Assembly: GCA_021161185.1 (NCBI GenBank)
Contig: JAGHBC010000073.1
Span: 1 to 39,096 of the forward strand
DNA: 39,096 bases
Direction of reading: 5' to 3'
Source: Fidelibacterota bacterium
GTDB lineage: Bacteria > Fidelibacterota > UBA2242
Each line of letters opens with the position of its first letter. Position 1 is the first letter of the stretch. This document shows positions 8,721 through 10,634 of the stretch, in pieces. The notes beneath the pieces are model-generated. The model did not search any database. It saw nothing but the letters and a program-made list of their open reading frames with translations, and was not told where the DNA came from. The position numbers were made by a program, and so were the translations under genes.

Positions 8721-9110
8721 ATGGAAGAAATATCTGTAAAAACCAGTTCGCGAATAGAGATGCTTGACATAACATCGCAGATAAGAAGCGCCATTAGTAA
8801 AAGTGATCTACAAGAAGGTGTTTGTACGGTCTATTGTCCTCATACGACTGCGGCAATTACGATTAATGAAAATGCCGATCCTGATGTTACTGCCGATATC
8901 ATGCAGAAATTGAGTAAAATGATACCGCTACATGAAAATTATCGCCATATGGAAGGTAATTCAGACGCTCATATTAAATCGTCACTTATTGGCAATAGTG
9001 TTCAGATCATCGTAAGTGGGGGACAACTGAAACTGGGGACCTGGCAGGGAATCTATTTCTGTGAATTTGACGGACCACGCACAAGACATGTCTGGGTGTC
9101 AATAAAATAA
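8721..9110 (+). CDS. yjbQ: YjbQ / UPF0047 family protein (secondary thiamine-phosphate synthase type)
   Basis: 129 aa, normal for the family. Recognisable blocks are EGVCTVYCPHTTAAITINEN, then D-P-D-V, HMEGNSDAHIKSSLIG, and the C-terminal LGTWQGIYFCEFDGPRTRHV. The conserved histidines and acidic residues fit the reported metal/phosphate-binding pocket. Family members were reported to have weak thiamine-phosphate synthase activity; the true physiological role is unsettled. AGAGGAAAA precedes the ATG closely. A perfect hairpin follows the stop immediately, so it is probably monocistronic, facing the 59-aa gene. Confidence 0.92.
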   Translation: MEEISVKTSSRIEMLDITSQIRSAISKSDLQEGVCTVYCPHTTAAITINENADPDVTADIMQKLSKMIPLHENYRHMEGNSDAHIKSSLIGNSVQIIVSGGQLKLGTWQGIYFCEFDGPRTRHVWVSIK

Positions 9111-9343: not shown

Positions 9344-9737
9344 AATCCCTCCTAAGTTTAAAGTTATTTAATTCATATTTGCATTTTAATAGATATATAA
9401 CTAATTGTCAATGGAAAATATTGATCACATTATCTTAATGCTTTTAATTTCCAGACATTTGTCGATGTTCGGATCATATCCAGGATGCGGTCAACTGCTA
9501 GCTACACATGTTTCATGTTAATTCCGTGGGCTGAAAAACTTTTTGACATTATTTATCTAAATACTTATCATATCCGGCACAGCAAGTAAAGGCAGGCTGA
9601 AGTCTGTTCAGGCTATTTATCTCATATTAACAGGTGAATTATTTACAGAAATATGCCGAAATGGTTCATCAAGGGTGAAAAATGATATATCAAGCGTCCG
9701 AAATGGCTCATTAACATTATAAAATGAGGAGAATAAA
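9344..9737. other. Intergenic stretch without an intact gene
   Basis: AT-rich, with no convincing coding region on either strand. An imperfect 17-bp direct repeat of the form CCGAAATGGYTCATYAA occurs at 9656-9672 and 9698-9714, shortly before the first antitoxin stump. It may be what is left of an operator region. Confidence 0.5.
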
Positions 9738-9785
9738 ATAAAAGCGTCGGTAGTTGATCTTAACAATGAATCTGTCACTTTATAA
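9738..9785 (+). pseudogene. 5' stump of a Phd/YefM-type antitoxin gene (first copy)
   Basis: A ribosome binding site (GAGGAG at 9726-9731) precedes codons reading KASVVDL, the typical opening of one class of Phd-like antitoxins (MKASVVDL...). The start codon position carries ATA rather than ATG, and after VVDL the frame runs NNESVTL and stops. Everything downstream of the first eight codons or so is lost. Identification rests on a very short match. Confidence 0.4.
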
Positions 9786-9823
9786 CATTTTTAAATAAAT
9801 CTATTGCACTATTTATCGATTAA

Positions 9824-9845
9824 GTTTACATTGAAAAGTGTAAAC
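9824..9845. promoter_or_regulatory. Candidate antitoxin operator (inverted repeat)
   Basis: GTTTACA (9824-9830) and TGTAAAC (9839-9845) form a perfect 7-bp inverted repeat with an 8-bp spacer, ending 19 bp before the ATG of the antitoxin stump at 9865. Autoregulated antitoxins commonly bind such sites, so this probably survives from the original toxin-antitoxin promoter. Confidence 0.5.
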
Positions 9846-9864
9846 ATTGATTGAGGAGTAAAAT

Positions 9865-9998
9865 ATGATAGCAACGGCAAAAGATTTAAGATTTCACTCC
9901 AAAGAACTTTTGTAAACGGAATGCCACTTTGTACGGCGAATAATAAACATTATAAAATAATAAGTCAATTGGATATTAATAAATTCAGTCCGGAATAA
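9865..9998 (+). pseudogene. Collapsed Phd-PIN toxin-antitoxin module
   Basis: GAGGAG then ATG at 9865 encodes MIATAKDLRFHSKELL and stops at 9913-9915; this is the usual opening of Phd/YefM antitoxins. In another frame, 9915-9995 encodes NGMPLCTANNKHY followed by KIISQLDINKFSPE and a stop at 9996-9998, which reads like the last strand and helix of a VapC/PIN-domain toxin (PLCTANxKHY). The simplest reading is one internal deletion that removed most of the antitoxin and most of the toxin and joined their outer ends out of frame. Both products are dead. A 14-bp inverted repeat operator candidate lies just upstream. Confidence 0.6.
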
Positions 9999-10048: not shown

Positions 10049-10246
10049 ATGAAACTGAACAGAATCATTACCGGGAAATACTCTTCAAGTGAATCCATAA
10101 TAGAAAAGCCGGCGCAAATTTCAGCAAGTGAATCAATCTCTTTTGTTTGGGATTTAACCAAAGAAGTATTTTCATTAACGAAGAAATACGATGTTGAATC
10201 AAGACTACAAAGAAATGTTATCAACATTATTAGAAGAAAAAGTTAA
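10049..10246 (+). CDS. Small partner protein of the nucleotidyltransferase
   Basis: 65 aa: MKLNRIITGKYSSSES, a middle part SFVWDLTKEVFSLTKKYDVE and a basic end RLQRNVINIIRRKS. No membrane segment. The C-terminal 56 bases overlap the start of the nucleotidyltransferase gene in another frame, an arrangement typical of two-gene toxin-antitoxin or accessory modules. I recall similar short proteins with a basic tail preceding such nucleotidyltransferases but cannot name a family. No clear ribosome binding site upstream, which lowers confidence. Confidence 0.55.
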   Translation: MKLNRIITGKYSSSESIIEKPAQISASESISFVWDLTKEVFSLTKKYDVESRLQRNVINIIRRKS

Positions 10247-10634
10247 TTTTCTTATTGTTGGTGCATATGCCATGGCGGCACACGGATATCCTCGAGCAAC
10301 AGGAGATATCGACATTTTTATTCAGCCGAATGAAACTAATGCCGAAAAAGTCTATAATGCATTGATCAAATTTGGAGCGCCATTAAAGAACGTTTCCACT
10401 GAAGATTTTTCAACCCCAGGCATGATTTTTCAAATCGGAGTTACACCAAGAAGAATTGTCATAATCAACTCAATAGACGGCGTGTCATTTGAAGATGCTT
10501 ACTCAGACAGAATAATCGTTGAAATCGAATCCCTTCCCGTTCCCGTTATCTCCAAAGAGAATATCATCAAAAATAAAGAGGCGACAGGCAGACCAAGAGA
10601 TAAGCTTGACGCCGACAACCTGAAGAATTCCTGA
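10191..10634 (+). CDS. Nucleotidyltransferase (DUF6036 / AbiEii-like)
   Basis: 147 aa. VNFLIVGAYAMAAHGYPRATGDIDIFI is the signature region: a G(A/G)-x-A(M) helix then TGDIDI with the two Asp residues that bind metal in Pol-beta-type nucleotidyltransferases. The end IIKNKEATGRPRDKLDADNL is the usual C-terminal helix region of this family (typically NKxATGRxxDxxD). The length is normal for stand-alone members. Such proteins occur as toxins in type IV-like systems, as mobile-element cargo, or as solitary enzymes; substrate unknown. It starts inside the preceding small gene. The neighbourhood of decayed toxin-antitoxin genes supports an accessory role. Confidence 0.75.
   Translation: MLNQDYKEMLSTLLEEKVNFLIVGAYAMAAHGYPRATGDIDIFIQPNETNAEKVYNALIKFGAPLKNVSTEDFSTPGMIFQIGVTPRRIVIINSIDGVSFEDAYSDRIIVEIESLPVPVISKENIIKNKEATGRPRDKLDADNLKNS

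Follow-up and report, generated by a model that had tools for sequence, protein, structure and literature searches.

Two ends of a toxin–antitoxin module within 175 nt

The window, by which we mean the whole stretch of 39,096 nt that was analysed, comes from a Neomarinimicrobiota genome. Over about 175 nt of its forward strand lie an operator-like repeat, a ribosome binding site, the beginning of an antitoxin gene and the end of a toxin gene, in the following order:

9824–9845, + strand: operator-like inverted repeat GTTTACATTGAAAAGTGTAAAC, with arms of 7 + 7 nt and an 8-nt centre; consensus kept across intact modules
9853–9858, + strand: ribosome binding site GAGGAG, read directly, 6 nt ahead of the ATG
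9865–9912, + strand: codons 1–16 of a Phd antitoxin, MIATAKDLRFHSKELL; 16/16 residues identical to the L014 antitoxin
9909–9912, + strand: proposed deletion joint, in which TTG (9910–9912) suits both antitoxin codon 16 and the toxin's Leu/Ile-Val codon pair
9912–9998, + strand: C-terminal 28 codons and stop of a VapC (PIN) toxin, VNGMPLCTANNKHYKIISQLDINKFSPE; 61% identity to the VapC of genome G019 (E = 1.1e-7)

The inverted repeat reads GTTTACA-8nt-TGTAAAC, and its arms are perfect. Its consensus, GTTTAYATTNNNNWRTRTAAAY, is a pattern drawn from eight sequences, with 6 of the 65 scored modules among them; within 75 nt upstream of the antitoxin start it occurs with at most two mismatches in 59 of 65 intact modules, drawn from many phyla, and with at most four in all 65, against 0% and 0.8% of shuffles. 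Exact matches on the strand as written, sought in eight genomes, are limited to the window remnant and three intact modules of the family. Where operator position 6 is C, the opposite arm tends to have the matching G, and where it is T, the matching A (TTTACA..TGTAAA or TTTATA..TATAAA), a symmetry to be expected of a dyad that a dimer reads. The repeat at 9824–9845 is the predicted autoregulatory operator of the module. An operator of the form GTTTAYATT-N4-WRTRTAAAY is common to subgroup modules L010, L014–L016 and L077–L156 from several phyla, which suggests that it travels with the module.

Downstream of this repeat, the Phd N-terminus is present with its ribosome binding site and start codon: by direct reading, the antitoxin frame opens at ATG (9865–9867) and closes at a TAA stop (9913–9915). 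Most other modules differ from the head at one to three positions. Intact homologous antitoxins match PF02604 (PhdYeFM_antitox) and TIGR01552 in profile searches.

The +2 frame from 9909 encodes FVNGMPLCTANNKHYKIISQLDINKFSPE and ends at the stop 9996–9998. In whole-genome searches of 199 relatives, the 29-aa tail matched, far more closely than chance allows, seven VapC C-termini (E about 1e-7 to 4e-5), all of which sit in open frames of 127–144 aa; upstream of each of these toxins is a 79-aa Phd, or a slightly longer frame, with MxATAKDLRFHSKELL or a near variant at its start. The 28 tail codons are 50–61% identical to intact VapC C-termini, and alignment shows that the invariant G, T, N, K, H and F positions are all retained. 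Intact PIN toxins match PF01850 directly. The tail peptide, scanned alone or as head plus tail, is too short and gave no Pfam match, which does not refute the assignment because its 29 residues lie almost wholly beyond the stretch of the intact toxin best matched by PF01850 (residues 1–114 of 126). The earlier note, made from the letters alone, had recognized antitoxin codons 1–16, an operator-like inverted repeat and ribosome binding site preserved upstream, and the C-terminus of a PIN toxin downstream. All of these hold, the last through the seven VapC matches with a Phd ahead of each; profile searches agree for the intact antitoxin and toxin but not for the tail peptide by itself.

Intact modules and the length of the deletion

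A scan of named genomes yielded 80 module loci, mainly in Neomarinimicrobiota, Calditrichota, Ignavibacteria and Desulfobacterota-type genomes. Distribution in the window's own phylum is patchy, 8 of 245 genomes carrying the module. One distant match (40%) lies on a plasmid, and no viral contig was found to carry the module. The Phd/YefM–VapC 'ATAKDLRFHSKELL' subgroup (L010–L016 and L077–L156) has the same head, tail, operator, gene order and phase as the window, which, unlike it, is without antitoxin residues 17–79 and toxin residues 1–97. What is shown directly is homology at both ends, together with the order, strand, phase and spacing of the parts and the operator. Weak, short toxin-tail matches at L019, L020, L023 and L026 were considered as further fossils and look like chance. 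At about 1501–1566 of L018 (genome G037), a toxin tail of a second module type is frameshifted, with no complete toxin ahead, and looks like another VapC remnant.

Between antitoxin codon 16 and the opening codon of the tail, intact modules have 477–487 nt and the window −1. In thirteen of them, among which are the closest (L084, L080, L010 and L081), the figure is 485 nt and the phase +2; the window's phase is also +2. A figure of 485 nt against −1 means that 486 nt (3 × 162, or 162 codons) are missing. The removed part takes in the PIN active-site acids. Because the deletion is a multiple of three, the native phase is retained: of a PIN toxin on the same strand with an overlapping start, the C-terminus alone is left, in the expected +2 phase. 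The description of the two pieces as 'out of frame' was correct in that this is the native offset of two overlapping genes.

The joint can be placed closely. In related modules with Val at the tail opening, the preceding residue is Leu, Met or Ile and not Phe. The T at 9909 therefore fits best on the antitoxin side, which puts the joint at 9909–9912; an earlier placing at 9909–9917 had the position right and the extent too wide. The TTG at the joint is a possible microhomology, whose length would be 1–6 nt, depending on the ancestral codon ahead of the toxin Val, with 3 nt (TTG) most likely. A search for direct repeats at the joint found no long one flanking it within the remnant, leaving TTG as a possible short one. 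Shared ends of a few bases are usual in RecA-independent deletions. We infer a single event at a microhomology, with little or no selection on the loss: a deletion of about 486 nt would have fused antitoxin codon 16 to the toxin's 98th–99th codons, probably through slippage or end-joining across a short shared sequence, TTG or somewhat more. Left behind would be the promoter/operator and ribosome binding site, together with an open frame of 16 codons and the final 28 codons of the toxin.

A spacer of broken-down genes

Two further scraps lie upstream of the remnant:

9450–9501, − strand: 52 nt from the 3′ part of a dicarboxylate/glutamate-type symporter gene, LAVDRILDMIRTSTNVW; 88–90% identical to the intact gene in G001 and G006
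9727–9761, + strand: second fossil, the ribosome binding site and codons 1–8 of an unrelated antitoxin; 89% identical over 37 nt to module starts in G006

The window has a UPF0047 gene (8721–9110) in common with G001, G006 and G010; in those genomes it is followed, on the opposite strand, by an intact symporter gene, of which the window retains just 52 nt (9450–9501). In G001, a genome of the same genus, the intact symporter rather than a module stands beside the UPF0047 gene. We found no relative with an intact module at exactly this position, and the sequence of the ancestral module itself is one that we infer. The second fossil, 104 nt upstream of the Phd head, runs ATA AAA GCG TCG GTA GTT GAT CTT (I/M-KASVVDL) with ATA as its start codon. 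Antitoxins of this KASVVDL type are intact in a sister genus: G006 holds intact counterparts, as the antitoxin of a VapC module, and similar matches, also intact, occur in G010 and G013. The toxin that belonged to it is gone from the window, and the best alignments for its tail in 9764–9822 were no better than shuffles (P = 0.09–0.76). Between the scraps, at 9656–9727, a 30-nt unit, CCGAAATGGTTCATCAAGGGTGAAAAATGA, occurs as three degenerate copies 21 nt apart, with two similar copies in contig 124 of G010 (L063, 3081–3112 and 3385–3416).

From these comparisons, the spacer consists of scraps joined together, first the symporter, then the second antitoxin head and then the Phd–VapC remnant, and has undergone deletion repeatedly. 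The Phd–VapC module was probably lost last, because it is the least damaged of the scraps. The neighbouring remnants, as signs of repeated deletion here, also fit a loss in two or more successive events, such as a smaller toxin deletion followed by one of the antitoxin, and the end product would be identical. We regard such a history as very unlikely: the 175 nt bear no other damage, with operator and ribosome binding site kept, the antitoxin head matching at 16/16 residues and every invariant tail residue in place, and one cut accounts for both length and phase. A fossil formed by one internal deletion, as the earlier note proposed, is supported by the comparison with more than 80 intact modules, and by the conserved operator, the 485-nt spacing and the phase.

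The remnant and the genes downstream

The antitoxin frame stops after codon 16, leaving no complete toxin-binding antitoxin, and the catalytic acids of the PIN domain (DTD near the start, E37 and D90) went with toxin residues 1–97. With these and antitoxin residues 17–79 missing, the remnant can encode neither protein. Of 199 relatives searched genome-wide, none has the short head-plus-tail arrangement as a gene. Within the window's own genome, we found no significant further copy of the remnant, no cognate copy able to act with its operator and no other intact antitoxin of its type; one Phd/YefM antitoxin is present, but of another type. No PIN-domain toxin was found there either, a provisional absence because the genome is about 91% complete. 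Lacking both a PIN toxin and another antitoxin of this type in the genome, the operator is left without a known ligand.

Downstream lies a pair of genes in the same orientation as the remnant:

10049–10634, + strand: 65-aa ORF overlapping a DUF2204/DUF6036-like nucleotidyltransferase gene; dN/dS of 0.26–0.40 against the window

The segment 10029–10749, which holds this pair, is 92–93% identical in G006 and G010, across genera. Different toxin–antitoxin modules come ahead of it: G006 has MazEF and a further VapC module there, G010 has BrnT as well as a PIN/ribbon-helix-helix pair; the 65-aa ORF and nucleotidyltransferase may themselves be toxin–antitoxin-like. One could suppose that the operator-promoter and the 16-codon frame still have a role, and that the promoter, derepressed once the antitoxin was lost, transcribes this pair. 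The orientation agrees, the remnant's stop is 50 nt from the ORF, a pattern scan found no + strand terminator-like site between them, the dN/dS values indicate purifying selection in comparisons with the window, and in G006 and G010 the pair also lies 3′ of a toxin–antitoxin module. However, relatives carry the pair behind quite different upstream sequence, and we consider such transcription very unlikely. It is scarcely to be expected that the leftover promoter/operator was co-opted as a constitutive promoter of the pair, the remnant persisting because it is useful.

The draft assembly is fragmented (160 contigs) and the same-phylum matches are metagenome-assembled genomes too. An assembly artefact or a minority strain variant of this metagenome-assembled genome is nevertheless a most doubtful source of the 486-nt gap, given a clean joint, a remnant without a long repeat to mislead the assembler and two more deletions less than 450 nt away that are consistent with real erosion. 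Taken together, the data indicate that the 175 nt are very probably a non-functional remnant of a chromosomal Phd–VapC type II toxin–antitoxin module, left by a single deletion of about 486 nt.

Loss of the module

The idea in the earlier note that an addiction module can safely be lost by deleting toxin and antitoxin together found no support. In post-segregational killing, the existing toxin outlives the labile antitoxin once both genes go, and joint removal is therefore the very thing that is punished. Chromosomal modules, by comparison, are often non-addictive and can be deleted without harm (PMC2654758, PMC7280312), and reviews describe such modules as decaying through deletions and nonsense mutations (PMC7167474, PMC2654758, PMC7280312). 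Neutral loss is enough and is the most likely account of the remnant: the module would have gone with selection weak or absent, in a spacer with other broken-down genes, and the two neighbouring remnants show general deletion at this site.

A decaying chromosomal toxin–antitoxin locus is on record in Escherichia coli, ccdO157 (Mine et al. 2009, as summarized in PMC2654758 and PMC7167474). On that summary, it too is a chromosomal module lost by deletion or mutation; the window differs in family and in having both outer ends flank one cut inside both genes. Our search of the literature on VapC toxin–antitoxin systems in Marinimicrobia found, among the papers covered, none that combines these subjects.

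Decay of toxin–antitoxin modules through deletion is already known, and the remnant is a new instance of it: an unusually clean case of ordinary gene decay, tidy enough for teaching. Usually, the loss of a chromosomal module is deduced from its absence; in this remnant the cut can be read to about 4 bases, the length of the deletion is fixed by phase and the state before it is supplied by intact modules with the same operator. The remnant leaves what is known of addiction unchanged. It shows that a spacer holding different toxin–antitoxin modules in sister genomes also sheds such modules.
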